A stretch of 64,000 nt of DNA from Cognatiyoonia koreensis. GTDB taxonomy: Bacteria > Pseudomonadota > Alphaproteobacteria > Rhodobacterales > Rhodobacteraceae. The stretch lies in assembly GCF_900109295.1 (NCBI RefSeq), contig NZ_FOIZ01000002.1, forward strand, positions 558,001-622,000, given 5' to 3'. Shown here piece after piece: positions 4,839-30,213 of the stretch (its first letter is position 1; each line of letters begins with the position of its first letter). The notes beneath the pieces were generated by a model. That model was not told the origin of the DNA. It did no database searches and was given only the letters and a program-made list of their open reading frames with translations. A program made the position numbers and the translations under genes.

Positions 4839-4842
4839 GGGA

Positions 4843-5271
4843 TCAGGCTACGTCCTCTTGCGGTTTGAAGTTCAAGGATGACGTGATTCGCCGCACTTCC
4901 GCCTTTTGCTTGTCGGACAACGGACCTTGTTGAGAAGCCGTCAGAACCATCGCGCCTGTCGGTGCGTTCACCGTCGTGATAATCTGGTTCATGTCACCCT
5001 GCTTGGCTTTCCATGTGCACTCGATCTCGACCGCATCGACACCGCAGATGGTCAGGGACTTCTTCGTCAGAACAGTAAACTTCGTCAGCGCCTCACCGGC
5101 TTGCTTCAGCTCGCCCTCGACATACTCAAAGAAATCCATGCCCCAGGGGATTTGGTCACGGGTGATCGTAAATGTCATGCCCGCACCGCCACCGTTTGCC
5201 GATACGACATTGATCGACTGGTCTTTCCACTCATCGGGGAGATCAATCGTGCCTTCGTTAATCGTATACAT
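4843..5271 (-). CDS. EagR-type T6SS chaperone (DcrB/DUF1795 family)
   Basis: A 142-residue protein without a signal peptide, of the usual size for DUF1795/Eag chaperones, with N-terminal MYTINEGTIDLPDEW and the internal GMTFTITRD strand. Eag proteins bind the hydrophobic N-terminal segments of Rhs and other PAAR effectors in the cytoplasm and help load them on VgrG. Its place between vgrG (2-base gap) and rhs (4-base gap) on the same strand is the typical arrangement, so the family and role are well supported, although partner specificity is inferred from position. Confidence 0.9.
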   Translation of the reverse strand: MYTINEGTIDLPDEWKDQSINVVSANGGGAGMTFTITRDQIPWGMDFFEYVEGELKQAGEALTKFTVLTKKSLTICGVDAVEIECTWKAKQGDMNQIITTVNAPTGAMVLTASQQGPLSDKQKAEVRRITSSLNFKPQEDVA

Positions 5272-5273
5272 GC

Positions 5274-7931: not shown

Positions 7932-9527
7932 TCAGGTTTGGTCTGCGGCTGCAATCCAGACTTCAACACGGCGGTTGATAGCGCGGCCATCTTCGGCAGT
8001 GTTACACGCGGATGGCGCAACTTCACCGTAACCAGATGCGGTGAATTCGATCCCGGCAAGGCGGTCACCTGCAAACTGCTGCATCATGTTCATGACCTGT
8101 TCAGCACGTCCGATCGAAAGGGCGTGGTTGTTGTCAAATTCACCAACACCATCCGTGAAACCCACGAACATGATCTTTGAGCCCTCGGGCTGCGCTTCGA
8201 GGTAGTCCGCGAGCCGCGCCATATCGATCGCACCACGTTCATCCAACCTCGACGAGCCAGTGCGGAAACGGAATGTCGTGGACAGACGATCGTGATCGGC
8301 CATTTGGCTTAGCATTTCGCGCATGACGCTGCCTTCATAGGCATCAACAGACGGATCTAGCAGCATACGGGCACGATCACCGTTCATTGCCTGTTCGCGC
8401 CGCGTGATACTAAGGTCGATGAAGCCTGATTTAGCAATCACGCTGTCTGCTTCGTCAGACATCACGTAGTTGATGAATTCGTCAGCCGCCGCGTCCAGAT
8501 CGTCACCACGGTTATAGAGGTAAAGGCGATGCTGAAGCGCGTATTCTTCGGTTTTTGCCGAGAATTCGTCAGGTGTCATGTTAATTCCGCATTCGTTCAC
8601 GAGGGAAAGCGCCTTTGCTCCACGCTGGAACGCGTAACCGACATAACCTATTGCGTTGACATCAGCGTTTACTGACGCGGCAGTCAGACTGTTGTCGTTT
8701 TCTTCAATGGCAGATGCCGCAGTCTTTGCGCCGGAAGCACCAAAGACACGGTCCTCGAAAACGGAACGTATACCCGAGCCTTCTTGGCGGCTGATGATCG
8801 TTATAGGCGCATCGTTTCCACCCACATCGGACCAGTTCGTGATTTCGCCCGCATAAATTCCCGCCAGCTGTTCGATGCTCAGACTGTTCACCGGATTGTC
8901 GGGGTGCGCGATGACGACAAGGCTATCGACTGCGATTATGTGTTCCTGTTCAGGGCTGGTCATGTTGCCCGCCCCAGCATTACGCAGTTCGCGCGCTTCG
9001 GCAGGCAGGACCCGGCGTGTGGCCATACCAATCTGGGCCGATCCATTCAGCAACGTCTTAAACGCATCGTCGGAGGATGTGGAAGTCACAAGATACGTAC
9101 CGATCTTATCGCCAAATCCGCTATCACTCACGAGTTTGGCATGGATTTCGCCTTCTTTTCCTGTTGCGAAAACAGATGCTTCGGCGTCAAGGTATGACGC
9201 GTACCCAGAAATCAGCAGCGGCATCATATCCAGACCAACCGTATCGGACCCTGCAACCTGAACGTCTGCCGATGTCGTTTCAGGTTTTGGGCAGGCGTCC
9301 CCTTCGCAACGTACGCGGGACGCGGCGACATGCAGATCTCCCAAACCGGTGCGGATTATGTAGTTGTCGTTTGTGAATTCGATGACCTCACCTACGAGGT
9401 TCACCGTCCCGTCGGCTGACTTCAATATGACTTCATCAGCAAGAACGGACATTGGCAAAATGCCAGCGCCGAAGGCAACCAGTGCGATCGAAGCACGTTT
9501 CTTGAGATTAGCGCGACTGGAAGCCAT
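7932..9527 (-). CDS. Secreted phosphate-binding-like (PstS/PBP) and OmpA fusion protein
   Basis: The 531-residue product starts with a signal peptide (cleavage likely after VLA30). A 50-residue beta-rich module ends in CEGDACP (about 74-80). A type 2 periplasmic binding domain follows (about 88-370; VAGSDTVG, GIYAGEITNWSDVGG, SRQEGSGIRSVFE are PstS-like). A C-terminal OmpA peptidoglycan-binding domain (about 410-528) carries FRTGSSRLDERG, GFTDGVGEFDNN and the terminal INRRVEVW motif. A clear AAGGAG site sits 7 bases before the ATG. It should be periplasmic and hold on to the cell wall while binding a small ligand, perhaps an anion; the ligand is unknown. It is the last strong gene of the kinase-GTPase cluster and has a paralogue at 49295-50869. 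Confidence 0.88.
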   Translation of the reverse strand: MASSRANLKKRASIALVAFGAGILPMSVLADEVILKSADGTVNLVGEVIEFTNDNYIIRTGLGDLHVAASRVRCEGDACPKPETTSADVQVAGSDTVGLDMMPLLISGYASYLDAEASVFATGKEGEIHAKLVSDSGFGDKIGTYLVTSTSSDDAFKTLLNGSAQIGMATRRVLPAEARELRNAGAGNMTSPEQEHIIAVDSLVVIAHPDNPVNSLSIEQLAGIYAGEITNWSDVGGNDAPITIISRQEGSGIRSVFEDRVFGASGAKTAASAIEENDNSLTAASVNADVNAIGYVGYAFQRGAKALSLVNECGINMTPDEFSAKTEEYALQHRLYLYNRGDDLDAAADEFINYVMSDEADSVIAKSGFIDLSITRREQAMNGDRARMLLDPSVDAYEGSVMREMLSQMADHDRLSTTFRFRTGSSRLDERGAIDMARLADYLEAQPEGSKIMFVGFTDGVGEFDNNHALSIGRAEQVMNMMQQFAGDRLAGIEFTASGYGEVAPSACNTAEDGRAINRRVEVWIAAADQT

Positions 9528-9552
9528 TTTATTCTCCTTGAACCACTCAATA

Positions 9553-9627
9553 GCAGTCTTCGGAGACAGGCCAGATTCACCTCCCGTAAGACTGCATTAC
9601 TTAAGATCGCCCGGTACATCCGGGACG
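9553..9627 (-). promoter_or_regulatory. Inverted repeats in the leader of the PBP-OmpA gene
   Basis: The 201-base gap before the secreted PBP-OmpA gene holds an 8-base perfect inverted repeat (GCAGTCTT at 9553-9560 and AAGACTGC at 9588-9595). It also holds a compact hairpin at 9607-9627 with a CCCGG/CCGGG core and a TACAT loop. No U-run follows the hairpin on the minus strand, so it is not a standard terminator. The elements may form leader structure or an operator giving this gene its own control. This is seen in sequence; function is a guess. Confidence 0.3.
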
Positions 9628-9728
9628 AACAACGCAAGGTTAACGCGGACAATGTGCTGTAAATACGGCGTATGTTGGCTTATTTGCAGGTACCTCAGCA
9701 GACTGGTTTCGAGGCAAGGCGATATGAC

Positions 9729-10523
9729 CTAAGCGGCAGTGTTTGTCTCTCTCCAGTTCGCATAGACATTCCCGAGTTGGTCCGGGCTGAAGCAGAACAA
9801 GCTAACTTCATCGTCCCGTTTTGCCACTGCGAGCGACGATCCTTCCCCCAAGCCTGAGTTTAGGCATATAAGCGACGGTTCAGCATTACCGGCGCGCAGT
9901 TTAGCGTGTGCTTTTTCGAATGTAGACCACTGCTGGTTCGCGATATCCTGCAGTTTGTCCTGAATGGCTTTGTCGCCCTTGGCGCGAATGATTTCACCCT
10001 GCGCAATGACTAGGCTGGCGTTCACGGAGGCACCGCAATTGATAATAAACTGGCCGAGCGGTGTCGGCGGGCTCAATGCCATGTCTATACCCCATGCGTC
10101 GGACAGAATGCCAACGCCAACGCCGGTTTCCGTTGATGAACCGATTTTGTCGGTCATCGCGCTTTCGACGGTCAGTTCGCCTTCTTTCTCACCAACTTGC
10201 TTCATCACATGGGCGACAGCGTCCATAACTTCGGCATCATCGTGCGTGACGATCTTGCCCATCACCCGCAATGCTCCGTCGATGTCTCCGGACAGTTTCG
10301 TCATGCCTTGCAGTCTGCGGCCACCTGCAACAATCGTAACGTAGGATTTGCCAACCCGGAACGTCAGTTTGCGATTAAGCACAGTCGCATCAATTTCGTG
10401 CAGGATTGCGTTCAGGATCGGGGTACTTTCGCCGTCCGAAATAACGCGCGCGCCGTCCCGAAAGGATGTTGTGGACGATGCGAGTGCTGCAAGTTTGTGC
10501 GAGAGTGCCTTTTTATCGATCAC
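9729..10523 (-). CDS. Conserved-looking cytoplasmic protein of unknown function in the GTPase cluster
   Basis: A 264-residue protein beginning at a GTG codon, with an AAAGGCAGGG stretch upstream as possible ribosome site. It has no signal peptide or membrane segment. The pattern alternates helices and strands, with FRVGKSYVTIVAGGRRLQG near residue 60 and a Gly-rich LNSGLGEGSSLAVAKRDDEV near 230. I recognise no family. It follows the roadblock-like 124-residue gene by 44 bases in the same direction, so it probably belongs to the same transcription unit and works with the GTPases. A role as partner or regulator is inference from context only. Confidence 0.6.
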   Translation of the reverse strand: MIDKKALSHKLAALASSTTSFRDGARVISDGESTPILNAILHEIDATVLNRKLTFRVGKSYVTIVAGGRRLQGMTKLSGDIDGALRVMGKIVTHDDAEVMDAVAHVMKQVGEKEGELTVESAMTDKIGSSTETGVGVGILSDAWGIDMALSPPTPLGQFIINCGASVNASLVIAQGEIIRAKGDKAIQDKLQDIANQQWSTFEKAHAKLRAGNAEPSLICLNSGLGEGSSLAVAKRDDEVSLFCFSPDQLGNVYANWRETNTAA

Positions 10524-10567
10524 GATCTTGGCCCTGCCTTTATTAACGTTGATGGGACGCCGTGGCG

Positions 10568-10942
10568 TCAGCCGCCACCGCTAATCTTTTGCAGACATGG
10601 CCGCGCTTCTGAGAGAAACGCCGGGATGTCCAAGTCGGGTGCGCAGATGCAGCAAAGTACATCTGACGGTTCGTTTTCGGCCCGCAGAAAAATCTTGATC
10701 TGATCCTTAGTGGCAATGAATGCCGCATCACTTGTCGTGTCACCGATGGCGGGGGTGTCCGCCGGTCCCAGTGTCAGCGCGGCTTCGGCACAGAGCGTGT
10801 CGAGTGCTTCGCGCTTCTGAGGGCTTTTAGTATTCGTAACAAGGATCATGTTGGTCGAAAGATCCGCAAATGCCAGTGTTTCGCAGGCTGGAAACTTGCT
10901 ATGCAATGCATCCAAATCATCCGAAACCATAATTTGCCCCAC
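10568..10942 (-). CDS. Small protein, possible roadblock/LC7-like fold
   Basis: This 124-residue protein has the rough rhythm of a roadblock/LC7 domain: an early beta-hairpin (DLSTNMILVTNT), a long helix (REALDTLCAEAALTLG) and later strands (AAFIATKDQIKIFLRAE, VLCCICAP). Roadblock proteins are common regulators of prokaryotic small GTPases, for example MglB for MglA, and three GTPase genes lie immediately upstream. The fold call is by eye and tentative. No signal peptide is present. It is read after the 338-residue GTPase across a 75-base gap, before the unknown 264-residue protein. Confidence 0.5.
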   Translation of the reverse strand: MGQIMVSDDLDALHSKFPACETLAFADLSTNMILVTNTKSPQKREALDTLCAEAALTLGPADTPAIGDTTSDAAFIATKDQIKIFLRAENEPSDVLCCICAPDLDIPAFLSEARPCLQKISGGG

Positions 10943-11017
10943 GCTTTACGTTCTTACCCACCGTTTGATTACGCGAAATCATGGGGCGGGGGAAGCCTTA
11001 GCGGGGAACAGGCTGGT

Positions 11018-12034
11018 TTAAGATGCGATCTGCGTCGGTGTCTCCTCGTTCAGTGTCAGGTCATAGTCATCTGCCGCTACGTCGCAACGGTCTGCGGTCA
11101 TCGCGCTGCTGCGACCGAGCCGCTGTGACGGGTGATCCATTGCATCAGGGTCACGTACTGGGCGTTCACGTTCGACGCGATCTGCTGCTTGCACGCGCCG
11201 CGGCAGAACAACGGTTGCGTTCGGATCACCGTCTATCACGGGGTTTTCCAGCATAAACGGTTCAGCATCTGCATCGGAATTGATTTCCGGCACATCAGCC
11301 AGTTCAACTGGCGGGCGTGCGACGTAAAGCGTTTCGTCCATCATCGCGACAGTCTGTGTCAGTTCTTGCACAGAGGTGATCAGATGTTCGGTAAAGGCGG
11401 CAGCGCCACTTTTTTCCCACTTATCATAATCTTCACCAGCGGCGAGCGCCTGTGTCAACGAGATCGGGAATGTGCCACCGAATTGGCCTTCCGTCTCTTT
11501 CATGACCCGGCGCAGCACGCGGGCTTTGTCCTTGTCATTCGTCAGTTTGTCAAAGCGCGTGATCAGCAATGTGCTGCGTGCCTTTACCGCTTCGGGAAAG
11601 CGTTCCCACATTGCGGATTCGGACTGCCGCCAAGCCTGTGTCGCGTGCGTGCACCACAAAACAGCGTCGATTTCCTCAAGCATTCGCTCGATCACGTCAC
11701 TGGACATGTTCGGGTCGGAAATACCAGGAAAGTCGATTAGATCGCAGACTTCAAGAATGTCGCTTTCAAAGAACAGGCGGATGACACGTGTTTCTTCGAC
11801 CGGAATGCCTTCGAGCCGTTCGACCGAGACAAGTTCGATTCCACCGTCCATGTCGATCCGGTAAGGCGTATCGGTGCCTTGCGCCATCCAGACCGGCGAA
11901 AGCCGTGTCGCGGTGACTTTTTCAGGAAGCGGACGTGCGCCCAGCAACAGATTTGAAAGCGTGCTTTTGCCCGCACTGAACTCCCCCATGAGTGCGATGC
12001 GCGGCTTGCGCGGTGTTTCGATCTTGTCGGTCAT
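11018..12034 (-). CDS. Dynamin/Era-like P-loop GTPase with disordered tail
   Basis: The 338-residue protein has a Walker A motif GEFSAGKST (17-25), a G2-like TATR (41-44), a G3 DFPG (101-104) and a TRFDK (159-163) in place of NKxD. The SAGKST variant and flanking residues fit the dynamin_N group. The segment LWCT (126-129) followed by a Trp-rich stretch recurs in the third GTPase of this cluster, so the two are paralogues. Residues after about 235 are acidic and low in complexity, with RR clusters, and are probably disordered. Its ATG overlaps the TGA of the 706-residue dynamin gene (ATGA), indicating coupled synthesis and probably a physical partnership. Cellular role is unknown. Confidence 0.82.
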   Translation of the reverse strand: MTDKIETPRKPRIALMGEFSAGKSTLSNLLLGARPLPEKVTATRLSPVWMAQGTDTPYRIDMDGGIELVSVERLEGIPVEETRVIRLFFESDILEVCDLIDFPGISDPNMSSDVIERMLEEIDAVLWCTHATQAWRQSESAMWERFPEAVKARSTLLITRFDKLTNDKDKARVLRRVMKETEGQFGGTFPISLTQALAAGEDYDKWEKSGAAAFTEHLITSVQELTQTVAMMDETLYVARPPVELADVPEINSDADAEPFMLENPVIDGDPNATVVLPRRVQAADRVERERPVRDPDAMDHPSQRLGRSSAMTADRCDVAADDYDLTLNEETPTQIAS

Positions 12035-14151
12035 GCAGCGTGTCCTTCGGTTTGGGCAGCATCAGCCTCTTCTTCGCGTGCGACTTCGTCGTCTCCGTCA
12101 AGGCTGAGTTCTTCGAAAATGATATCGAACAGTTCTTCGCGTTCTTCCTGGGCCGTGATGCCGAATAGACCATTGAGGTCATCAAGGCTGATCTGCGCCT
12201 TTTCACAGACATCCATCAGAATCCCACGTTGTTCGGCAAGAAAGTCGGCCAGTTCTTCGAGTGCCATGTTCTTGATTTCGGCAGCCTGACGGACCTTGAG
12301 CTCATCAACAATCGGTGCGGTTTCTGCTTCGATCAATTCATAGAAGCCGCTAGCGAATGCGCGATAGCCCTTGCGACGCTGCCACCAGCCCTTCCACCAG
12401 GATGTCTGAAGGTCGAGCGCGATGGTCTGGCCAAGCGAAACCGGTGCAGGAACTTCGGGGCAAGATGGCGGCGCGATCCGGAAGTTTTCAACATTGACCG
12501 AAAACACCTGACTGTAGGTTTGCGTCAGATCGTGCGCCGATGCGGTGAACACCTTTTCGCAAGAGACGGTGAAGTTCTTCTTCATCACCTGATAGCTTGT
12601 GCGTAGCAACATCCGCAGCCCGTCGGGGCTATATTGCCAGACTTCGTTTTCACCATTCTGTTCAAGATGCTGCAAAAGCGATTCAAGCGCCCTATCCAGG
12701 AATCGTTTGTGCGACTGGTCTACTCGTGCGGAAAACTTCTCGAACACGGTATTCAATTCGGCATCAAGCGCCTGCATGCACTTCGCTTCGATCTGGCGGA
12801 GATGCTTGTCGAGCGACTCCGATTCCATGATTTCAAGGCTGCTGCCGTCGAGTCGCATTGACACGATCGAGGAAGACGCACGCAAACCCGACACGTGGTT
12901 CTTGGCACGCTTGCGCGTCGCGGCCAGCATTTCGGCACCTTGCCCTTCGGCAACGCGCGCCGACAGCGCATCAAAGAGGTGCGGCATACCAGACAGCTGC
13001 CAGACCATTTCGCGCACATCTAACTGACTGGCGTCTTCGTCAAAGACTGCCTCTGCGTAGTTGAACATCGCATCCGCACTGTCATCCACAATGTTGTGGA
13101 TTTCATTGGCCAGCGCGATATTCGCCCAATAGGCTGAACCGAACAGGATTTCGGGATTTGCTGGCCCATTGTTGTCAGCAAGTGTCTGAATGATGCTGTC
13201 GCGGATTTCCGGAATCTGATCAGCCGGGGCCGCCAATTCGTCGATCCGGTTCACAAAGATCACGACTTCGCGCGATTTCACGTTCGAGATGAGGCGGATC
13301 AGGCCCATATCCATGGATGACAAGGCCTGATGCGCCGATAAGACGACGACACAGATACGGCTGTCGCGCAGTGCTTTGATCGTAATCTGTTCGCGCATCA
13401 TGAATGTGTCGTTCACGCCCGGCGTGTCGCGGATGCACAGCGGCATCGGCAGACTTGGGGCCGACAAGTAGAGATCTGCGGACTTTGTAATGTCCGCGAA
13501 ACGGCCCTGCTGATCCTCGCTATCGGGATCATCGAAATCGTCGCCCATGCAAACGTAGCGTTGCACCAGCTCGTCATCGATATGGGCATAGTTGTGCTTT
13601 TGGCCCAGCAGCAACTCGAACTTGCGGCCAAGCCGGGCCTTCGTCTTTTCGCGCATCTCCGCGATCTGGTCGCGGACTTTCTGCAATTCTTCATCAGCGC
13701 CGGCGCGGCTTGAAAGTTCGCCAATGCGGCCGCCGTTTTCAACTAGATGGTCCCATTCGCCCTGATTGAAGAACTGGAAGGATGCGGCCGGCGCACCGTC
13801 GGGCAAGGGCGTGTTCAGGTGAAGCGAGGTTACAACCGATGTCCAAGGGTTCACGTCCGCTGGCAGCAGGTCGGGGCGACCGGCCATTGCGTTCACAAGC
13901 GACGTCTTGCCAGACTTGATCTGGCCAATCATCGTGATCGATGGTTCAAAGCTGCGCAAAGAGCGGACGAGCTTGCCAGCTTTCTTCGCGGCTTCTGGCC
14001 CACCGATCTTTTCGATGTCGTGCAACGTATCTTCGAGTTCGAGCACTTCGTCATGAAAGGAATCGAGCTTGTCGAGGCCGATCCGCATGAATGCAGGCTG
14101 GTCCGGCGCAACTGCCAGGCCGTTCTCTTCTTGCAGGTCTTCCATTTTCAT
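12031..14151 (-). CDS. Bacterial dynamin-like GTPase
   Basis: A 706-residue dynamin-family GTPase. Numbered from the chosen ATG, Walker A is GQIKSGKTS (76-84), G3 is DTPG (242-245) and G4 is NRID (301-304). Long helical segments follow (about 405-540 and 600-660), with an aromatic patch WWKGWW (585-590) next to QRRKGYR that could insert in or lie on membrane like a dynamin paddle. The C-terminus is strongly acidic. An in-frame TTG lies 15 bases further upstream, but AGGA is correctly spaced for the ATG at 14151. Bacterial dynamin-like proteins bend or fuse membranes; membrane action here is inferred. It is coupled by overlap to the next GTPase. Confidence 0.85.
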   Translation of the reverse strand: MKMEDLQEENGLAVAPDQPAFMRIGLDKLDSFHDEVLELEDTLHDIEKIGGPEAAKKAGKLVRSLRSFEPSITMIGQIKSGKTSLVNAMAGRPDLLPADVNPWTSVVTSLHLNTPLPDGAPAASFQFFNQGEWDHLVENGGRIGELSSRAGADEELQKVRDQIAEMREKTKARLGRKFELLLGQKHNYAHIDDELVQRYVCMGDDFDDPDSEDQQGRFADITKSADLYLSAPSLPMPLCIRDTPGVNDTFMMREQITIKALRDSRICVVVLSAHQALSSMDMGLIRLISNVKSREVVIFVNRIDELAAPADQIPEIRDSIIQTLADNNGPANPEILFGSAYWANIALANEIHNIVDDSADAMFNYAEAVFDEDASQLDVREMVWQLSGMPHLFDALSARVAEGQGAEMLAATRKRAKNHVSGLRASSSIVSMRLDGSSLEIMESESLDKHLRQIEAKCMQALDAELNTVFEKFSARVDQSHKRFLDRALESLLQHLEQNGENEVWQYSPDGLRMLLRTSYQVMKKNFTVSCEKVFTASAHDLTQTYSQVFSVNVENFRIAPPSCPEVPAPVSLGQTIALDLQTSWWKGWWQRRKGYRAFASGFYELIEAETAPIVDELKVRQAAEIKNMALEELADFLAEQRGILMDVCEKAQISLDDLNGLFGITAQEEREELFDIIFEELSLDGDDEVAREEEADAAQTEGHAA

Positions 14152-14286
14152 CGCTTTGATCCTCAATCAAATCTTTATCTTCACGTCGGTGCCTCTTGGC
14201 GGGCACATCGCGTTATTGTTTCCATATGGTCAGAGCAGGTCGGCGGAATTAAGGCACCAATTCGACTTAAATTTGATCGGCTGGGC

Positions 14287-15774
14287 TTAGTGCGCGAGGT
14301 CTGCTTCCAAATCGTATTTCAATTGGACAACGAGGCTGACGGCATCAAAAACCGCGCTGTCGTGTTTTTCCATCTGCATCAGCTGGATCAGGTCGGCAGC
14401 ATCGAGTGCGGTTTCACGAGCACGCTGCAAGATTGGGTCATCGTCCTCGCCATTGTCCTGCAAGTGATCTGCGAGCCACTGAACATTGTCGACAGACCGT
14501 GACATGATCTTGGCGACAGGCACTTTTTCAGAAGTTTCGACAGCGTTGGCGAGGGCGCGCCCTTCACGGGTCAGATACGAGATTGCATCCTCATACGCCT
14601 TTCGCGATCCGTCTTTCAGCGTTGGCTTGGGTGGCGGTGCTTTCTTCTTGACCGGGATCGGTTCAGGAAATTCGTCCTCTGACGCGACTTTCGTAGGCTT
14701 CGTGCTTGCCTTCTCGACCTCGGCTTCGGGTTCGATTGGTTCTGCCTTGGGCACCGCTTGCTTCGCTGCGGGCTGTGCATTTTGCCGTTTGGGGTGTGCT
14801 GATGGTTCGATCCTTGTCGGTGTAACATCTGCCCTGATTGCCGTAGGTGTCGGTGCTGCAACAGTCGGTTCGTCGATATTTGCTGCGGCAACCGTTTCGA
14901 CGATGGTCTTTTCCTGAACCGGTGGTTTGATCTTGGCGGGTGTGGAAGTGGCGACTTGTTCAGTCTGCCGCAGGATCATTGCGGCCTGGTCGATCGTAGC
15001 TTGTTGGCCAAGATCAACCTGTCGCAAGATCGCCGAGATCAGCGCAAGGCCACCCGATCTGCGCATCGCTTCCTTATCAACCGACCCGTCGGAGAGGCGC
15101 GCATCAATCGCAGATAGCGTCGCGACGGGCAGAATCTGGTTGAACTCATGCTCGCCCACTGTCCGCACATTGGACAGCGTTGCCTGCAACAACTCGTTGC
15201 GTGACAACACATCGGCCTTTGTCACGACCATGAAGCCGTGGTCCTTGATAATGTCGGGCATTGCGCCCCACAGAGTTTGTTCGGGAATGTTGAAAGATTG
15301 CGTGCACCACAACGCCACGTCCGTGCGTTTAGCCGCCCAGAACATCGCTCGCTGCTGATCGATGTTATCGTCGCGTGCAACGACTTCGAGAACTGAAATC
15401 CGGCGAAGCGCAGGAAGTGGCAATGCGAGTTGGACAAAAACCGGATGCAACGCCGCAATCTCTGCAACATCGCAATGATCGAGGACCTCGACCGATCCGT
15501 CCGGCATTGTGCATTTGCTTTTGGCGACCTCGCCATAGACAAGCTGTGTCGTAGGCAGGTGCATTCCGTTAGGAACCACATCCGCGCCCGCAAGCAGGTT
15601 CATCAGCTGGGACTTGCCGGTGCCGGGCAGACCCATCAGCGTTAGCCGAACGGGTTTATCCAAAGCCGCCAAGAGCGCTTCGGCTTTAGGCAGAAGGTTG
15701 CCGGGCAGATTGCCGGACGCGAGAGCGTCGGCTAATCCGGTCCTGACCTTTGCAACTGTTGCCTGCAGAGACAT
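14287..15774 (-). CDS. P-loop GTPase-like protein with Pro/Ala linker and C-terminal helical domain
   Basis: Of 495 residues, the first about 250 form a GTPase-like domain: Walker A GLPGTGKS (48-55), LWCT (155-158), and TKAD (185-188) as G4. A canonical DxxG switch II is not visible; the equivalent region reads LEVVARDD, so hydrolysis may be weak. Residues about 275-385 are a Pro/Ala/Lys/Glu linker, and a helical tail follows (about 390-495). The domain is paralogous to the 338-residue GTPase (shared LWCT block and following Trp). The gene starts 3 bases after the PP2C stop codon, so both are probably one transcript, and dynamin follows across 135 bases. Confidence 0.75.
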   Translation of the reverse strand: MSLQATVAKVRTGLADALASGNLPGNLLPKAEALLAALDKPVRLTLMGLPGTGKSQLMNLLAGADVVPNGMHLPTTQLVYGEVAKSKCTMPDGSVEVLDHCDVAEIAALHPVFVQLALPLPALRRISVLEVVARDDNIDQQRAMFWAAKRTDVALWCTQSFNIPEQTLWGAMPDIIKDHGFMVVTKADVLSRNELLQATLSNVRTVGEHEFNQILPVATLSAIDARLSDGSVDKEAMRRSGGLALISAILRQVDLGQQATIDQAAMILRQTEQVATSTPAKIKPPVQEKTIVETVAAANIDEPTVAAPTPTAIRADVTPTRIEPSAHPKRQNAQPAAKQAVPKAEPIEPEAEVEKASTKPTKVASEDEFPEPIPVKKKAPPPKPTLKDGSRKAYEDAISYLTREGRALANAVETSEKVPVAKIMSRSVDNVQWLADHLQDNGEDDDPILQRARETALDAADLIQLMQMEKHDSAVFDAVSLVVQLKYDLEADLAH

Positions 15775-15777
15775 GGC

Positions 15778-16842
15778 TTACTTTCCTCCCGCCGCCAGCT
15801 TCATCGGCTGATCATCCTTGCCAATATCTTTGTCGTCGTCAGAAACAGCGTGACCGCCTTCATCCGAGCCGCCAGGCCTTGCCTTACGCGTTGGAGCATT
15901 CCGTCCGGCAGGCTTGGATCCTTCATCTCCTTGCATGCCTGACGTCAGATTCGTTGCGATGACATCGTTGATCGGGACAAGCCGCGTGATATTCCGCACA
16001 TTGGTATCTACCACATCCAATGGCTTTGGTGCGATTGCACGCTCCATGGGTTTGTTGTGGTTTAGTTTGATGACCGAGAACGAAATGTTGTCCTGATCCG
16101 GATCAGCGAGTTTCTCGATCGCCTCCAAAAGGTGGCCGGCAATTTCAGAACTTTTGCGGCGACGATATCGGTTGAGAATCTTTTGGATTTGCGGTTCATC
16201 AAGATACTGCAAACCATCGGACGATACGACAACGATATCGCCGACCTGCATTTCAAATGGTCTGATCGGGCAATCCGACTTGGCCACACGATCCCCGAGG
16301 ATCACGGATGTCAAACAGTTCCTGTCAGGATGATTGCGACCCGCTTCGGCGTCCAGAATTCCCGACTGCACCATGAAGTCGATCTGTGGAGCCATCGAAT
16401 GGTCTTCGTTCAGCTGCTGCATGTTCCCACCACGAAAATGGTACAAGGGGCTGTCACCAATCGACATCCAATAGAAACGGTTTTCCACAAAGACAGTCGC
16501 AATCAGTGTCGCGCCCATGCCACGTGTCGCCGGGTTGTCCATAACATGCTCTCGCACGCTCTGGTTTGCGCCGGCTGCGGCTTTTGTCAGCATCTCGGGA
16601 ATATGCGCTTCTTTCTGGGAAAACTCCGCAGAGAGGAACTTCAGATCACTGTAGACTTCTGTCACGACAATTTTCGACGCCACGTCGCCGGCGGCGTGTC
16701 CACCCATGCCATCGGCAAGGACAACAAGCCCCGTATCCGCACCGAATGGAAAGTCGGTGACAATCGCGTCTTCTTGGTAATCGCGCCCGCCCTGGCAAAG
16801 TGCCGAGGCAACATCAAAGCGCGGTTCAGGCGATCGCCACAT
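15778..16842 (-). CDS. PP2C-type serine/threonine protein phosphatase
   Basis: A 354-residue protein with bacterial PP2C (PPM) signatures: QEDA near residue 23, ADGMGGHAAGD (43-53), SSDGLQYL in the second half and DPDQDNISF before a C-terminal low-complexity tail. These Asp residues bind the two metal ions. Start choice: GAGGAG lies eight bases before ATG 16842 (MWRSPEP), and this start overlaps the FHA gene end by 17 bases; an earlier ATG at 16872 lacks such a site. PP2C enzymes remove phosphates from Ser/Thr, here most simply those added by the kinase encoded two genes upstream. Its position between FHA and GTPase genes suggests that the GTPases or FHA partners are targets. Confidence 0.9.
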   Translation of the reverse strand: MWRSPEPRFDVASALCQGGRDYQEDAIVTDFPFGADTGLVVLADGMGGHAAGDVASKIVVTEVYSDLKFLSAEFSQKEAHIPEMLTKAAAGANQSVREHVMDNPATRGMGATLIATVFVENRFYWMSIGDSPLYHFRGGNMQQLNEDHSMAPQIDFMVQSGILDAEAGRNHPDRNCLTSVILGDRVAKSDCPIRPFEMQVGDIVVVSSDGLQYLDEPQIQKILNRYRRRKSSEIAGHLLEAIEKLADPDQDNISFSVIKLNHNKPMERAIAPKPLDVVDTNVRNITRLVPINDVIATNLTSGMQGDEGSKPAGRNAPTRKARPGGSDEGGHAVSDDDKDIGKDDQPMKLAAGGK

Positions 16843-17725
16843 CTTCTGACTCCTCGTCACCAGGTGTATCAACCCAGTTGAATTCGGCGGTGCAAAGCGC
16901 CTTGAACATCAGGGTTGTTTCGCCCAGACGGATTTCATCACCATCCTTGAGAGGCACGTTGCTGATGAGCGGTTCGTTGTTGAGCCGTACGATGTTGGAC
17001 TTGCCGCCGTGGCCCGCCATGAACGTATGGGTTTCGGTATCATAGACGATAGCCGCATGGTTCGTCCGCGAAATGGCGTTGTCGCCAAAATCAAGCTGAA
17101 TGGACTGATCTTCTGCACGACCGATCTGGTTCATGCCTGCTTCGAGCGAGAAGCATTCACCGCGACCGGGGCCGGATACCACGATCGCCCAGCCAACCGG
17201 GAACTGCGAGCGTTGGCGTGGTGCCGTCGCATTCGAACCGTCAAACAGATCAACAACATCGCCCTGCGACGTATCAAAACCGATCAGACGCGTCTTTGTA
17301 CGCCGCTTGCGCGATGATGCAGCCGGGGCGGCAGGTGCCGCATGTGAATCATCATCGTCCATATCCCAGATATTGACCGCAGCCCCCGAAGTAGCTTTCG
17401 GTGCATCCTTGCTCGCAGGTGCCCTGTCCCCCAATAGTTGCGAGAGCTTTGCCGCGTCTTCTTCGGCCTGCTTTGCTGCGGCAGAGTCATCGGCAAGTTT
17501 CTTGTCGAGGTTAAGCTGTGTGATTTCGCCGCGCACGGGCGGATGCTTGACTGGCGCATCCTCAACGTCGACTATCTTGCGGCCCGCATCAGCGGCAGCC
17601 TTGGCCACATTTGCCGTCAGATCTTTGGTCGCGAGAGCAGTCTCAAAGTCGTCAACCTTTTGCGATGCTTCGGGCGCAGGAGCGGACCGCTTTCGTCCGC
17701 TGATGAGATTACGAATGAACTTCAT
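16826..17725 (-). CDS. FHA-domain phospho-threonine binding protein
   Basis: A 299-residue cytoplasmic protein with a long charged, Ala-rich N-terminal half and a C-terminal FHA domain (about 178-276). The FHA phosphate-binding signature is intact: IGRAED (201-206), ISRTNH (218-223) and NIVRLN (244-249). The linker contains a basic KTRLIGF segment (144-150) with a Thr that might be a kinase site; this is inference. FHA domains read pThr marks, so this is the likely adaptor between the kinase upstream (40-base gap) and downstream GTPases. Fha proteins in T6SS work in the same way with PpkA and PppA, but no other T6SS core component is encoded nearby. Confidence 0.9.
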   Translation of the reverse strand: MKFIRNLISGRKRSAPAPEASQKVDDFETALATKDLTANVAKAAADAGRKIVDVEDAPVKHPPVRGEITQLNLDKKLADDSAAAKQAEEDAAKLSQLLGDRAPASKDAPKATSGAAVNIWDMDDDDSHAAPAAPAASSRKRRTKTRLIGFDTSQGDVVDLFDGSNATAPRQRSQFPVGWAIVVSGPGRGECFSLEAGMNQIGRAEDQSIQLDFGDNAISRTNHAAIVYDTETHTFMAGHGGKSNIVRLNNEPLISNVPLKDGDEIRLGETTLMFKALCTAEFNWVDTPGDEESEDVAIA

Positions 17726-17765
17726 TGTATCTACCTCTTACTTTTTTCGAAGGGCCTTTGCCCGG

Positions 17766-19922
17766 TTAGTCTTCTTGGCCGTTGGCCTTGAATTCGAGAC
17801 CAGCAACCCACTTTGAGTCGCCACGATTGACAACAAAACTAAAACGCGTGGTTCCTGCTGCGATTTCACTTTCGAGAATGTCCATCAGCGTTGTTCGCGC
17901 GTCGATTTTGGCGGAATTTGGGATGTAGGCGACCAGTGCATCGCCGACCTCCATGTCAGTTGCCACGCCTACTGGAAGTGCGGACACAACTGTTTCCCAG
18001 CCATTTTCGGTAGGGTTGGATGTAAAACCCACACCATTAAGAAGCTCATAATCGTGGCGGATTGGAATCGGCAAATCATGAACTGTTGCGACGCCATCCG
18101 TCTCAATGCCGAATGCAACGGTGATTTCGACCGCATCGCCCGGGCGAACGTTTTCGCGGAGTATCTCTTGAATGTCGGCGATCCGGTCAACCGGCAAGTC
18201 GTTCACGCTTGTAACGGTAGCGCCTAGTTCGGCCCAATCTGGTGCACCGGCAACCGTTTCGCCAATTGTAGCGGGTGCCTCTGCCGATGCCGTGAATGGC
18301 AGGTCAACGGACCATGCCGGCAGCACGAACTTTGGCACAGCTGGTGTCGGTTCAGGGACGACTTCGTTTCCCGGCACAAGCGCCGGTATTTCGATTTGCA
18401 TTGCGGTTGCGTTTTCGCTCACGGAATCCGGTGCGAATGGCAGCGCGAGTACTGGTGTTGGTGAACCTTGGGGGACAGGCACGTTCGCAAGAAAGCCCGG
18501 CAGGCTCGCGATAGATACTGCATCGCGCAATATCTCGGGGGTGATAACGGGTTCCGGAAGCGGTTGTTCAACGACAGCCACCACCTCGGGTTCTTCAACC
18601 GGGGATACCGTTTCTTGCGTTACAGCAACTGTTTCTTCGGATACGGGTGCTGCGATTGCCAGATCATCAGGACGCGTGCTTGGGCGCACCACAGGTGCGA
18701 TCGTCGCGGCGACCTCGGCAGGTTCGTCCGTCACAATCGGATCAGGCGATACGACCGGCGCGAATGCCGGGCTTTCAGCAACGGCTGTTGTCGTTTCCAG
18801 AACCTGCGGATCAGTGCCTACGATCGCGGCAGCTGCTTCGGAGGCTCTTGGCACAAGATCCGTTTGCGTAACGACACCCACTCCAAAAAGAGCAACCACG
18901 GCAACTGAAGCCATCAAGAGCGGCATTTTCGATTTTTTCGTGTCAGATCCGTTTGCTATAGGTCGTGTCGACTTGGCACGCCGTTGGATCGTCTTGCCGT
19001 TGATTGCATCGATCCACTCCGCGGCTGACTGCAGGCGATCCTTTGGAAGGATTTCCAGCGACATGTCGATTGCTGCAAGAAAGTTACGATCATAGCCTTT
19101 GATCTTGTCGACCAATGGCACGTAAGGATCCGCGTCGCCCGTTGCCACTGCAGCAAGGCGGGCCTGTGAATTCGGCGGGGTCTCGTCCGCGATCAAGTGA
19201 TAGAAGCTCGCGCCCAATGCATAAAGATCGGACGATGGGTTCTGTTCACTTCCGGCGATATAGAATTCCTGCGGCGAGTAACCGTCCTTAACGACCCGCA
19301 ATGCGGAGAGAACACGCGACTGCTTGGTCGCCTGTTCGCGCGCTGCACCGAAATCGATGAGTACTGGGCGCAAATCGCCATCGATCAGAATATTGTCGGG
19401 CGAGATGTCACGATGCAGGATGTTCTGATCGTGGATAAAACCGACAGCACCAAGAATGTCAGTCAGGATCGATTTGATGTTGTCGGGCGTCAGTCCATGG
19501 TTCGGGTCTTCAAGCGTATCCAGAAGATCACGACCTTCAACGAAATCAAGCGCCATGTAGGCGGTTTCGTTATCTTCGAAAACCTGATGCACGCCGACGA
19601 TATTTGGATGGTCCAGCTTTGCAAGCGACCGGGCCTCCTGCACGAAAAGACGCACAATCGACTTTAGCTCAGCTTGGTGTGCACGTGAACGGGCCTGAAC
19701 GATGGCACGGCTCCGGCGGCAAAACGCACCGGGAAAACATTCCTTGATGACAATCTTCCGATCAAGGCTGTCTTTTGCAAGATAGGTTATTCCGAAACCG
19801 CCTGCGTTCAGGAACTTCTCAATCTCGTACTGGCCATGCATCAACTTCGTGCCTGGCTTCAACTCGTCGACGAAGGCGTCCTCGCCATCATCATCAAAGT
19901 CTTTCAGTTGTGCATTGCCCAT
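17766..19922 (-). CDS. Transmembrane Ser/Thr protein kinase with periplasmic PDZ-like region
   Basis: A 718-residue protein with an N-terminal Hanks-type kinase domain (about 31-310): glycine loop NAGGFGITY (39-47), ATP-binding Lys60 (IVIKE), Glu96, HRDISPDN (170-177) and DFG (190-192), so it should be active. One transmembrane helix (about 333-353) leads to a Pro/Ala/Val-rich linker (about 360-530), presumably crossing the cell wall. A C-terminal region with two PDZ-like modules follows (VTSVNDLPVDRIADIQEIL and VGDALVAYIPNSAKI). It probably senses a periplasmic cue and phosphorylates the FHA protein or GTPases. It is the first gene of the minus-strand cluster; the promoter must lie between 19923 and 20192. 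Confidence 0.93.
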   Translation of the reverse strand: MGNAQLKDFDDDGEDAFVDELKPGTKLMHGQYEIEKFLNAGGFGITYLAKDSLDRKIVIKECFPGAFCRRSRAIVQARSRAHQAELKSIVRLFVQEARSLAKLDHPNIVGVHQVFEDNETAYMALDFVEGRDLLDTLEDPNHGLTPDNIKSILTDILGAVGFIHDQNILHRDISPDNILIDGDLRPVLIDFGAAREQATKQSRVLSALRVVKDGYSPQEFYIAGSEQNPSSDLYALGASFYHLIADETPPNSQARLAAVATGDADPYVPLVDKIKGYDRNFLAAIDMSLEILPKDRLQSAAEWIDAINGKTIQRRAKSTRPIANGSDTKKSKMPLLMASVAVVALFGVGVVTQTDLVPRASEAAAAIVGTDPQVLETTTAVAESPAFAPVVSPDPIVTDEPAEVAATIAPVVRPSTRPDDLAIAAPVSEETVAVTQETVSPVEEPEVVAVVEQPLPEPVITPEILRDAVSIASLPGFLANVPVPQGSPTPVLALPFAPDSVSENATAMQIEIPALVPGNEVVPEPTPAVPKFVLPAWSVDLPFTASAEAPATIGETVAGAPDWAELGATVTSVNDLPVDRIADIQEILRENVRPGDAVEITVAFGIETDGVATVHDLPIPIRHDYELLNGVGFTSNPTENGWETVVSALPVGVATDMEVGDALVAYIPNSAKIDARTTLMDILESEIAAGTTRFSFVVNRGDSKWVAGLEFKANGQED

Positions 19923-20192: not shown

Positions 20193-20660
20193 ATGTACAA
20201 AATTCTTGCCGTGTTTTTCATTTTCATTGCGGGCTTGGCGTCGGCCGAAAACCTGCAGTCACGCGACGGCTGGGTCGTCCTTCCTAGCGACAAAAGCTTT
20301 GACATTCTGCTGGAGGATTTGAAATCGCAAATCGGCGATAGCCCATTTGCAATCGTGACTCAGGCAAGCCCGACCGTTGCAGCGGCCAGTCGTGGCATCA
20401 CGATACCGAACAATCGTGTCATCGGCGTCTTCAACAACGTCTATGCCGTTCGAATCCTTGATCTTTCAACAGCCGCAATGATCGAGGCCCCAATACGTTT
20501 CTATGTCACCGAGAACATGGACAGCACTGCAACTCTTTCATACAAATCCCCAACATTTGTCTTTGGGCCCTACATGGACGAAGCCGGCCAAGACCTTGCA
20601 GCCGCCGCAGCCGAGCTTGACGCAGCGTTCGAAATGATTGCAAACGCAGCCGTGGAATAA
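20193..20660 (+). CDS. Secreted DUF302-like protein
   Basis: A 155-residue protein with a signal peptide (MYKILAVFFIFIAGLASA, cleavage before ENL). The mature part resembles DUF302: SFDILLEDLKSQIGD, TIPNNRVIGVFNN, ILDLSTAAMIEAPIRFYVTE and a closing TFVF strand. The ATG at 20193 is chosen because it begins the signal peptide, although the frame is open for 38 codons upstream. The biochemical function of DUF302 is unknown. It is divergent from the kinase cluster and lies 10 bases before the thiamine-diphosphate enzyme, so it might be cotranscribed with either metabolic gene or be a neighbour by chance. Confidence 0.8.
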   Translation: MYKILAVFFIFIAGLASAENLQSRDGWVVLPSDKSFDILLEDLKSQIGDSPFAIVTQASPTVAAASRGITIPNNRVIGVFNNVYAVRILDLSTAAMIEAPIRFYVTENMDSTATLSYKSPTFVFGPYMDEAGQDLAAAAAELDAAFEMIANAAVE

Positions 20661-20670
20661 AGGACGACCT

Positions 20671-22278
20671 ATGACTTTGCGTGCCGCTGATATCCTTGCC
20701 CAGCGCCTGTTTGCAGCAGGGTGCCGCCATGCATTCGGCATGCCGGGCGGCGAGGTTCTGACCCTGATCGATGCGCTCGAAAAAGCGGGGATTACCTTCA
20801 TCTTAGCAAAACATGAAAACGCTGCCGGCTTCATGGCAGAGGGTGTGCACCACATGAACGGCGCCCCCGCGATACTTGTGGCCACCGTGGGACCCGGCGC
20901 GATGAACGGTGTCAACGTCGTGGCAAATGCAGATCAGGATCGTGTTCCGCTGATTGTTCTGACCGGTTGCGTTGATGCCGCAGAGGCGCAAACCTACACG
21001 CATCAAGTTCTAGATCACCGCAAGGTCTTCGAGCCGATGACCAAGGCCACGTTCACGCTGGTGGCCGACGCTGCGGGGACCATCGCGGAAAAGGCCATTG
21101 GAATCGCAACCGAAGGTCGTTCCGGACCTGTGCATATCGATGTGCCAATTTCTGTCGCGGACGCCGAGGGCGTCGACATGGATGGTGCCCGTGCAAAGGC
21201 AAGTCCTGTCGCCCCTGCCGGCGCTGACCTCGAAACGGCCCGCGCATGGCTGGCCGATGCAAAGCGCCCTGTAATCGTTGCAGGACTGGACATCCTGAAG
21301 GACAATGCCATCGCAGAGCTGCGCCGTTTTGCAGAAACCTTTAATGTGCCTGTGATTACAACCTACAAGGCCAAAGGCGTCATCCCCGAAGATCATCCAC
21401 TGTGTCTAGGTGGTGCCGGGCTTTCGCCAAAGGCCGACAAGTTGTTCATGCCGTTTCTGGCAGACGCCGACCTGATCTTATCCGTGGGTTACGATCCGAT
21501 CGAGATGCGAACCGGTTGGCGCAACCCGTGGGATCCGTCGCACCAGAAGGTTGTCGACATCCACGCCATGCCAAATCACCATTTCATGCACCAAACCACG
21601 TTAAGTTTCATCGCGGATACCGGGGCCACGCTTGCGTCTTTATCCGAAGGTGTCGCCGCATGCGAAACATGGGAAAACGGAGCAGTTTCGAATTTGAAGG
21701 CGGATTTGGCTGCGGCATTTCCAGCGGATGATGTCTGGGGGCCTGCTGGTGTCATCGCAGAATGCCGCGCAGTCCTGCCTCCGCAAACAGTTGCGACAGT
21801 CGATTCAGGTGCGCACCGCATTCTTTTGTCGCAGATGTGGACATGTCCGGCACCCCGCACGTTGCTGCAGTCATCAGGATTGTGCACAATGGGGTGCGCA
21901 GTCCCCTTGGCAATGGGTGCGAAATTGGCCAACCCTCATACGCCGGTTGTTAGCTTTTCCGGAGACGCGGGCCTGTTGATGGTTGGAGGAGAGTTGGCGA
22001 CTGCTGCGGAAATGGGTTTGAACACCATCTTCGTCGTCTTTGTTGACAGATCACTTGCCCTGATCGAATTGAAGCAGCGCCAGCGCCAGATGGCGAACAG
22101 GGGTGTGGATTTTGATCACCATGATTATGCTGCAATTGCGCGGGCGTTCGGCGGACACGGTGTGACGGTCGACAACAGGGCTGATCTGCGCAGTGCATTG
22201 GAAGACGGAATGAGAGCAGACCGGTTCACGCTGATCGCCGCAGAGATCGACCGCAAATCCTATGACGGACGCATCTGA
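20671..22278 (+). CDS. Thiamine-diphosphate-dependent enzyme, acetolactate synthase-like
   Basis: A 535-residue enzyme with the three-domain acetolactate synthase/decarboxylase plan. The N-terminal Pyr domain has FGMPGGEVL, the catalytic-type Glu in AKHENAAGFMAEG and ATVGPGAMN; a central domain (about 185-330) and a C-terminal PP domain follow. The ThDP-motif is unusual: GDA followed by VD rather than GDG followed by NN, although Asp is kept for metal binding. It therefore cannot be called true IlvB. The stop overlaps the start of the CoA-transferase gene (TGATG), so the two enzymes act together, perhaps on a 2-oxoacid or acyl-CoA substrate. Oxalyl-CoA decarboxylase or 2-hydroxyacyl-CoA lyase are alternatives; substrate unknown. 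Confidence 0.8.
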   Translation: MTLRAADILAQRLFAAGCRHAFGMPGGEVLTLIDALEKAGITFILAKHENAAGFMAEGVHHMNGAPAILVATVGPGAMNGVNVVANADQDRVPLIVLTGCVDAAEAQTYTHQVLDHRKVFEPMTKATFTLVADAAGTIAEKAIGIATEGRSGPVHIDVPISVADAEGVDMDGARAKASPVAPAGADLETARAWLADAKRPVIVAGLDILKDNAIAELRRFAETFNVPVITTYKAKGVIPEDHPLCLGGAGLSPKADKLFMPFLADADLILSVGYDPIEMRTGWRNPWDPSHQKVVDIHAMPNHHFMHQTTLSFIADTGATLASLSEGVAACETWENGAVSNLKADLAAAFPADDVWGPAGVIAECRAVLPPQTVATVDSGAHRILLSQMWTCPAPRTLLQSSGLCTMGCAVPLAMGAKLANPHTPVVSFSGDAGLLMVGGELATAAEMGLNTIFVVFVDRSLALIELKQRQRQMANRGVDFDHHDYAAIARAFGGHGVTVDNRADLRSALEDGMRADRFTLIAAEIDRKSYDGRI

Positions 22279-23450: not shown

Positions 23451-23576
23451 TTTTAAATAGGATTCCATCGAATGAAACAAAATGCACAGGTCTGTCATTC
23501 ACGGACGTGTGAGGTGGATAGTGTTCGCAACTTCGCTATCCCCTTCGGGTAGACCTTTTTGACGATCGGATGAAAC

Positions 23577-24947: not shown

Positions 24948-24977
24948 GAGCCCGAACTCAAACGGGTTTTCCGAATC

Positions 24978-30081: not shown

Positions 30082-30213
30082 GCGCGTCCTCCGTCGTGGG
30101 TGACTATCTCTGGCGTGGTTTGTTGAAACAAGACACGTTGGGGTGAGTGTGGCCATATTGCTTCTGAAGCACGCAGGCTCTATCTGAACAGGAACATAAC
30201 GAAAGACTGTATC

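Follow-up and report, generated by a model that had tools for sequence, protein, structure and literature searches.

The nine adjacent minus-strand genes of this locus raise the question of whether a kinase/FHA/phosphatase switch and a bacterial dynamin belong to one signalling system and whether such a system has been described. The window, a stretch of 64,000 nucleotides from Cognatiyoonia koreensis, was therefore compared with related loci, protein families and known systems. The reading favoured here, with a probability of roughly one half, is that eight of the genes form a Rhodobacteraceae-specific signalling module which would gate a bacterial dynamin by protein phosphorylation via a Roadblock–GTPase relay.

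Gene organization of the locus

The open reading frame list and a Pfam search located all nine genes within positions 7932–19922 of the window, so the gene block of the preliminary description is real. All nine lie on the minus strand. A Hanks-type, PpkA-like Ser/Thr kinase of 718 aa (17766–19922; Pkinase, 108 bits) is followed by an FHA adaptor of 299 aa (16826–17725; FHA, 33 bits) and a PP2C-type protein phosphatase (15778–16872; PP2C_2, 54 bits), which comprises 364 aa when read from the listed TTG. The next three genes encode a putative pseudo-GTPase of 495 aa with a conserved C-terminus (14287–15774), a dynamin-like GTPase of 711 aa (12031–14166; Dynamin_N, 48.5 bits) and a GTPase of 338 aa with a Dynamin_N/Era-like G domain (11018–12034; Dynamin_N, 41.7 bits). 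A protein of 124 aa (10568–10942) and one of 264 aa (9729–10523) precede the last gene, which encodes a 531 aa protein (PBP-OmpA) with a PstS-like periplasmic binding domain and an OmpA peptidoglycan-binding domain (7932–9527; PBP_like_2, 109 bits; OmpA, 43 bits). From the kinase to PBP-OmpA, the intergenic gaps are 40, −47, 3, 120, −4, 75, 44 and 201 bases. As the conservation of the PP2C family begins only at residue 11 of the listed frame, the true start is probably an ATG about 30 bases downstream of the TTG, and the FHA/PP2C overlap would then be about 17 bases. A promoter and terminator scan left the operon ends unfixed (2 promoter-like sites versus 7.1 in shuffled sequences; 19 terminator-like sites versus 14.8).

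Conservation of the eight-gene unit

The loci for comparison comprised 39 stretches and the best 80 of 543 relatives listed, all picked via the dynamin, so that the presence of the dynamin follows from selection and distant types are under-sampled; one further stretch was the T6SS cluster of the organism itself. After removal of 12 duplicates from these 120 stretches, 20 of the remaining 108 were excluded for short flanks, leaving 88 non-redundant loci, in which a gene was counted as present anywhere in the fetched stretch on either strand. All eight core genes (kinase, FHA, PP2C, 495 aa GTPase-like, dynamin-like, 338 aa GTPase, 124 aa and 264 aa) were present in 71 of the 88 loci, exceeding what the preliminary description had required as support, a conserved co-occurrence of kinase, FHA, PP2C and two GTPases. 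The gene order recurs beside dynamins that are only 38–74% identical, which indicates that the set is not a product of chance. The core families also diverge together, with distance correlations over 77 loci of r 0.80–0.96, values that include the effect of shared ancestry. In G276 and G052, the two genomes whose copies were both compared, the type I copies are closer to each other than to the second copy of the same genome for all eight genes, and the type II copies are no nearer one another than to the type I copies. Judged by these comparisons, all eight genes have been passed on together as a single unit.

The taxonomic range is narrow. When the best three candidates per genome were scored (genome searches scored top candidates alone), the dynamin family was found in 97 of 292 Rhodobacterales genomes and in none of 380 other alphaproteobacterial genomes sampled. 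Conservation in other phyla, to which the suggested comparison extended, did not emerge; among the genomes sampled and the matches listed, every occurrence of the set falls within Rhodobacteraceae in a wide sense. The module is sometimes plasmid-borne (18 records). Incomplete forms also occur. Loss is coupled in G236, which speaks for the favoured module: neither kinase nor FHA nor PP2C is present at its locus, the 495 aa homologue is shortened to 247 aa, and no kinase of the module subfamily was found in that genome. The locus kinase is missing in G174 and G154, both of which encode a kinase of the same subfamily elsewhere, as do the genomes of their congeners G170 and G242. Four variant loci (L071–L074) carry the dynamin–GTPase genes in stretches from which kinase, FHA and PP2C are all absent, implying that the switch is not essential for the dynamin to work. 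Conversely, G008 and G009 contain members of the kinase subfamily without the dynamin.

Kinase, FHA adaptor and PP2C phosphatase

Catalytic or binding residues are intact in the kinase, the FHA adaptor, PP2C, the dynamin and the 338 aa GTPase. For the phosphorylation switch, these are the HRD and DFG motifs of the kinase family, the phosphothreonine-binding residues of the FHA adaptor and the DGMGGH, GDS, SDG and DN motifs of PP2C. A TR..GF motif precedes the FHA domain in 93 of 94 adaptors (KTRLIGF in the window), with Leu or Ile at position +3 of the threonine in twelve examples. The best match of the kinase to a solved structure is PpkA (5hnv, 143 bits; the next scores 78 bits). A T6SS origin of the kinase was considered on this basis and dropped: among 16 kinase loci outside the family, 13 have no FHA or PP2C match beside the kinase, only two (L224 and L226) adjoin a T6SS-type FHA gene, and one (L216) has an FHA–PP2C pair, so the PpkA match marks a subfamily, not an origin.

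Dynamin and companion GTPases

The large GTPase contains a dynamin-type G domain with G1, G3 and G4 and thus qualifies as bacterial dynamin-like; its best PDB matches are 5owv and BDLP (2j68). Within the family, the DTPG and N[RK].D motifs are present in all 103 sequences and the P-loop in 101. The Trp-rich basic motif WW..WW.[RK][RK] (SWW..WW in the window) occurs in 89 of 103, suggesting membrane contact of the dynamin, and hydropathy gave a transmembrane segment in just 3 of 114 family members. In the 338 aa family (104 sequences), G1 and DxPG are each found in 103, [NT][RK]xD in 98 and ATQAWRQSE in 95; its tail bears P[RK]R in 96, against 12 in shuffled tails. This GTPase and the 495 aa protein are paralogous (profile–profile E 2.5e-38), as the preliminary description had supposed of the two smaller GTPases. 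Its count of three GTPases holds for the dynamin and the 338 aa protein, which keep their motifs, but the third, the 495 aa protein, has degenerated. The MMR_HSR1 match of the latter is below the cut-off; its family keeps the P-loop in 91 of 102 sequences and a G4-like [NT][KR]xD, including that of the window, in 64 of 102, and DxPG in only 4. Because the G3 motif is mostly lost, the 495 aa paralogue is probably hydrolysis-deficient (a pseudo-GTPase). Given the P-loop, the frequent G4-like motif and the DxPG retained in Ruegeria forms, this designation may not hold for all members.

Predicted Roadblock-fold proteins

Roadblock/LC7 folds are predicted for two proteins, the one of 124 aa throughout and the one of 264 aa in its C-terminal half (about residues 149–264), the latter with a Z of 8.2, rated borderline by the tool. 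Thus, the predicted fold agrees with the earlier label of one protein as roadblock-like, and the second protein, labelled unknown, gains a predicted Roadblock domain. Their identity rests on predicted folds and some UniRef labels. Neither window protein had a Pfam match, and nothing convincing for Roadblock was found by Pfam across 27 and 20 members of the two families; a PDB sequence search with the 124 aa family returned matches at chance level alone, and profile comparison detected no sequence similarity between the two proteins (probability under 1%). As far as is known, Roadblock proteins of established function partner Ras-like GTPases, those of conservons included. The GTPases of the module are not Ras-like, which counts against Roadblock–GTPase pairing.

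Possible envelope sensing

The kinase of the window has one predicted transmembrane segment (residues 332–354), placing its C-terminal part outside the cytoplasm. By hydropathy, used here in place of a trained predictor, such a segment is found in 60 of 62 kinases longer than 600 aa and in 2 of 23 shorter kinases, a few of which (e.g., L058 and L040) are truncated at a contig end or by the reading frame. Hence the transmembrane kinase proposed earlier describes the window, but about one quarter of the family has no such segment. Likewise, PBP-OmpA belongs to the set in the window and lies within 14 of 88 loci; it is an optional partner outside the constant set. Other secreted or binding proteins recur next to genes of the set: PilJ-domain proteins (f10) in five loci, two binding proteins in Ruegeria (an SBP and one with a LysM wall-binding domain) and, in G008, a TAXI/NMT1-type binding protein adjoining the dynamin-less kinase–PP2C pair. 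The recurrence of apparently extracytoplasmic, sensor-type proteins of several unrelated forms speaks in favour of envelope sensing by the kinase, as does the membrane segment of the long kinases; the short kinases and the rarity of PBP-OmpA restrict this claim of the preliminary description.

Relationship to known systems

Searches of Pfam, NCBIfam and PADLOC matched the set as a whole to no named system, and no paper on the gene set was found among open-licence PMC articles, in agreement with the preliminary description, which knew of no described system with this exact combination. Conservons, MglA/MglB and the T6SS threonine phosphorylation pathway are the closest in logic, and the module departs from the first and from the last in a tested defining feature of each. 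Conservons (CvnA-D, also called actinobacterial G protein systems) are operons in which a sensor kinase is encoded with a Roadblock protein of the MglB type and a Ras-like GTPase, with accessory sensor genes in some copies, and they offer a precedent for a Roadblock protein acting as GAP (PMC13343842). The module resembles them in its operon of kinase, predicted Roadblock fold and GTPase and in its accessory sensor-type proteins. It differs from them in its Pkinase/Hanks-type kinase instead of a CvnA-like sensor histidine kinase, in its dynamin/Era-like GTPases (Pfam matches of the 338 aa and 711 aa proteins are to Dynamin_N and MMR_HSR1 and, at E 0.01, do not include Ras), in the addition of FHA, PP2C and dynamin, and in its occurrence in Alphaproteobacteria rather than Actinomycetota. 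MglA/MglB likewise have a Roadblock-fold partner next to a GTPase, whereas here the GTPase is dynamin/Era-like with a degenerate paralogue, the two predicted Roadblock-fold proteins differ from each other, and a phospho-switch is present. Bacterial dynamin-like proteins (BDLP 2j68, 5owv and LeoABC) share the Dynamin_N GTPase of about 700 aa; the dynamin of the module differs in being encoded with a kinase/FHA/PP2C set and predicted Roadblock-fold proteins, a setting that is not known for any studied bacterial dynamin.

Alternative roles were weighed against this background. Rather than remodel membranes, the dynamin-like protein could regulate output in soluble form by docking on an enzyme, in the manner of RdcA/RdcB (YjdA/YjcZ) and the diguanylate cyclase DgcE in Escherichia coli. 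RdcA, which is dynamin-like and soluble, requires its GTPase activity to bind and activate DgcE, and the passages on it describe no kinase, FHA or Roadblock partner (PMC6510439). Here too, a dynamin-like GTPase lies among signalling genes, and the scarcity of transmembrane segments fits a soluble protein. However, the Trp-rich basic motif points to the membrane, and no output enzyme was recognized among the families recurring in at least three loci, of which a part was identified (f7 ABC ATPases and the PilJ proteins); we regard this role as rather unlikely. Anti-phage or stress defence, in which the kinase would sense infection and the dynamin would seal or disrupt the membrane, would account for the patchy presence, the occasional plasmid location and the absence of the module from a congener (G010) despite a syntenic adjacent operon. 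In PADLOC, the kinase domain matches the PD-T4-6 kinase model over almost the full model length (146 bits, 5–279 of 292) and MAD6 (139 bits), and the GTPases weakly match LeoA and LeoBC. Yet these kinase matches cover the catalytic domain common to many kinases, with PpkA and PknB types matched as well; the NCBIfam MADS6 match, at 128 of 460, is well under the cut-off; the set includes no nuclease or other killing effector; and, in the plasmid records examined, most of the annotated genes nearby have metabolic functions. Five of the nine proteins (264 aa, 124 aa, 495 aa, PP2C and FHA) have no PADLOC match. A named defence system was given lower weight, and a defence role in general appears improbable.

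A second PpkA–Fha–PppA set controlling T6SS firing, with the GTPases as accessories, is suggested by the wide margin of the PpkA match, by the T6SS in the genome of the window and by VgrG, DcrB-type and RHS-PAAR genes directly downstream of the set. Kinase, PP2C and FHA are also encoded together in the T6SS threonine phosphorylation pathway (PMC5995506). VgrG, however, adjoins the set in 1 of 88 loci, that of the window, which makes a T6SS regulator improbable. TssA, B, C, E, F, G, ClpV and Hcp references from the organism's own cluster gave no match in any of the 120 stretches, and the same references do detect other T6SS clusters of the order. That cluster, about 270 kb away, carries its own kinase, PP2C, FHA and TagF. 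Of the 292 genomes, 79 contain TssC; among the 97 with the module, 33 have it (odds ratio 1.67, p 0.07) and 64 do not. The module is therefore neither located in a T6SS cluster nor confined to T6SS genomes, and it differs from that pathway in its GTPase and predicted Roadblock-fold partners; this role was accordingly lowered to a quite improbable one. Service to photosynthetic or other internal membranes is highly improbable. Reaction-centre genes (PF00124) are commoner in module genomes (53 of 97) than in the rest (65 of 195), with an odds ratio of 2.4 (p 6e-4) that becomes 3.8 without the 16 hits of genus g21, an exclusion chosen post hoc, but this association ignores phylogeny, 44 of the 97 module genomes have no such genes, and the congener G010 is phototrophic yet devoid of the module; the link was thus downgraded.

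Proposed mechanism and significance

In the favoured module for gating a dynamin, the kinase would phosphorylate, and PP2C dephosphorylate, a threonine, for example the one within TR..GF of the FHA adaptor, and the phosphothreonine would then be bound by the adaptor's own FHA domain or by a partner. The signal may pass to the GTPase pair, on which the two predicted Roadblock proteins would act as GAP or scaffold, by analogy with MglB for MglA, and the GTPase pair would license or localize the dynamin. Assuming membrane action, the Trp-rich basic patch of the dynamin would meet the membrane; we infer that the GTPases act on membranes, as the preliminary description had proposed. In the subtype of the window, the kinase is membrane-spanning, and the wall-anchored binding protein may supply the signal. 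A more tentative idea is that the module is a convergent bacterial counterpart of the eukaryotic Rag–Ragulator, in which an active GTPase and a hydrolysis-deficient paralogue, held by two different Roadblock-fold proteins, would read out the switch of kinase, phosphatase and FHA and commit the dynamin to membrane remodelling. If true, this would be, to our knowledge, the first bacterial example of Hanks-kinase control of a dynamin through a Roadblock–GTPase relay.

Enzymes of the dynamin type often have a membrane-shaping role, and in bacteria few physiological controls over them are known. The module would allow one to ask whether regulation by Roadblock domains extends beyond Ras-like GTPases, and the operon would provide a genetically accessible case, in Yoonia, Leisingera, Ruegeria and Rhodobacter relatives, for studying the timing of membrane remodelling.

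Gene content and conservation

The preliminary description placed nine closely spaced minus-strand genes at 7932..19922, and all nine ORFs were recovered there on that strand, with the claimed domains and with genes lying near each other or overlapping. The window occupies 558001-622000 of contig C2 in a 3.65 Mb assembly of four contigs. Eight core genes encode a kinase, an FHA protein, a PP2C phosphatase, GTPase495, a 711 aa dynamin, GTPase338 and two proteins of 124 and 264 aa with predicted Roadblock/LC7 folds; the ninth (7932..9527) encodes a PBP-OmpA protein. Among the matches listed, the closest named relatives of the dynamin belong to Yoonia, Loktanella and related Rhodobacteraceae.

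A search of the order revealed the dynamin family in 97/292 genomes and 40/112 genera. Approximately 20 kb was fetched around each of 39 dynamin matches from this search, and 80 further loci were taken from named genomes as the best 80 of 543 dynamin relatives. Including the window, this gave 120 stretches, 108 once duplicates were dropped, 88 of which had sufficient flank. The neighborhood is conserved, with all eight core genes in 71/88 loci. The dynamin is present in 88/88 by selection, as the loci were picked through it; GTPase338 is likewise found in 88/88, GTPase495 and the 124 aa protein each in 84/88, the 264 aa protein in 83/88, FHA in 82/88, PP2C in 81/88 and the kinase in 74/88. The order kinase-FHA-PP2C-GTPase495-dynamin-GTPase338-124-264 is retained in most loci; in L128-L130 and L132 (mostly Leisingera) it is split and partly divergent, and Ruegeria carries a rearranged version that includes two dynamins. 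The eight families show correlated pairwise distances across 77 loci (r 0.80-0.96, uncorrected for shared ancestry). In the two genomes where both copies of the module were read (G276 and G052), type I copies are closer across genomes than the copies within either genome for 8/8 genes, implying that the eight genes diverge together. The type II copies resemble one another no more than they resemble type I, and a single type II lineage therefore lacks support from the distances.

Distribution, loss and variant loci

In a class-wide sample, 380/385 genomes of which came, going by their numbering, from outside the order, the dynamin family occurred in 2/385 genomes (E 1e-15), both from the same bacterial family as the window. 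Among 72,556 plasmid records it was found in 18, all from Leisingera, Ruegeria or Rhodobacter. The kinase subfamily is broader, with 107/299 genomes at E 1e-30 (own family counted). In G881, a genome of another alphaproteobacterial family, kinase, FHA and PP2C occur together with no dynamin match. At this locus (L216, 7749-12430) the kinase gene is divergent from the FHA-PP2C pair, and the arrangement is possibly a relative of an ancestral triad.

The dynamin was not found in G010, the one listed congener, though the operon flanking the module (20638-30234) is syntenic there, indicating that the module is accessory. The locus of G236 lacks kinase, FHA and PP2C and carries a shortened GTPase495 homolog, and no module-type kinase was found in that genome. 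Same-family dynamin and GTPase genes, often as tandem pairs, also occur without kinase, FHA or PP2C in L071-L074 and L180, and on a plasmid of Rhodobacter sp. CZR27 such genes are followed by a sensor histidine kinase in place of the triad. In G174 and G154 (L046 and L047), no kinase lies beside the FHA gene; both genomes carry same-subfamily kinases at other sites, and so do two congeners. Three to five module-subfamily kinases per genome were observed in G174, G154, G170 and G242 (L237-L242), which suggests that several inputs may feed a single FHA/PP2C/GTPase set.

Kinase, FHA adaptor and phosphatase

The kinase has canonical catalytic motifs, and its best match among solved structures is PpkA (143 bits; runner-up, 78). 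The genome's own type VI secretion system (T6SS) cluster encodes a different kinase, the top structure matches of which are 9ymt/4eqm (106 bits), then PknE, PknA and PknB; PpkA is absent among the 60 matches listed for it. The kinase had been described as transmembrane, which holds for the long subtype (hydropathy predicts a TM segment in 60/62 proteins above 600 aa) and fails for the shorter one (2/23). FHA proteins exceed 360 aa in 18/94 cases, and those compared all come from short-kinase loci. The FHA binding residues and the PP2C metal-binding motifs are conserved, and a TR..GF motif precedes the FHA domain in 93/94 proteins.

Dynamin and the smaller GTPases

The dynamin contains the full set of G motifs, and 89/103 dynamins carry WW..WW.[RK][RK]. 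GTPase338 retains G1 and DxPG (103/104 each) and [NT][RK]xD (98/104), together with an ATQAWRQSE signature (95/104) and a tail P[RK]R motif in 96/104 proteins, against 12 expected from shuffled tails. The claim of paralogous GTPases proved correct as to the relationship, with GTPase495 being a degenerate paralog: DxPG is mostly missing (4/102, two of these being Ruegeria forms). As the P-loop is retained in 91/102 and a G4-like motif in 64/102, this sequence pattern suggests that GTPase495 may bind GTP yet is mostly unable to hydrolyze it.

Possible signal input

The PBP-OmpA protein, proposed as a member of the set, lies beside the core genes in the window and is optional overall (14/88 loci). 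Other sensor-type proteins recur. In L041-L045, secreted-looking proteins encoded close to the module or to its PBP-OmpA gene each contain two PilJ-domain stretches (five of eight copies were scanned, and all match); sometimes two such proteins stand in tandem. Ruegeria has two other binding proteins after PP2C, one with a LysM domain barely above the cut-off (21.9 vs 20.9 bits) and one with a sub-threshold SBP_bac_3 match, and G008 carries a dynamin-less kinase-PP2C pair with a TAXI/NMT1-type binding protein ahead of it. This recurrence suggests a periplasmic input to the module. A second PBP-OmpA fusion, 29% identical to that of the module, lies at 49295-50869 on the minus strand near secA (51905-54619), separated from it by a 314 aa protein with no Pfam match (50866-51810).

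Relationship to known systems and proposed mechanism

VgrG, DcrB-type (PF08786) and RHS-PAAR (1520 aa) genes with a small ORF at the start of the window (276-7175, minus strand) follow the module after a gap of 756 bases, forming a T6SS cargo island. The core cluster of the system lies approximately 270 kb away (approximately C2:263-294 kb) and has its own kinase, PP2C, FHA and TagF; TagF, TssK, TssL and TssM were identified by eye. VgrG accompanies the module in 1/88 loci. As T6SS core proteins used as probes matched none of the 120 stretches, and TssC co-occurs only weakly with the module (33/97 module genomes vs 46/195 others, p 0.07), the cargo genes are probably chance neighbors.

No Pfam, NCBIfam or PADLOC model names the gene set, and no description of it was found in the open-licence PMC literature, in agreement with the initial view that this exact combination is not known as a described system. 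In plasmid annotations, the products are given as 'dynamin family protein', 'zeta toxin family protein' or 'hypothetical protein'; the triad is named by domain. On the tested features, the module belongs neither to the T6SS threonine-phosphorylation pathway nor to the conservons. By analogy, its first half would work like the former (PMC5995506), and its second half like conservons and MglA/MglB (PMC13343842). The kinase and PP2C would control threonine phosphorylation of the FHA adaptor, with the TR..GF residue as a candidate site, and the adaptor would pass the signal to GTPase338 and its degenerate paralog. This pair would be regulated by the two predicted Roadblock proteins and would in turn gate the dynamin. 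The best reading of the gene and fold assignments is that the module may couple a phospho-switch through a Roadblock/GTPase relay to a dynamin.
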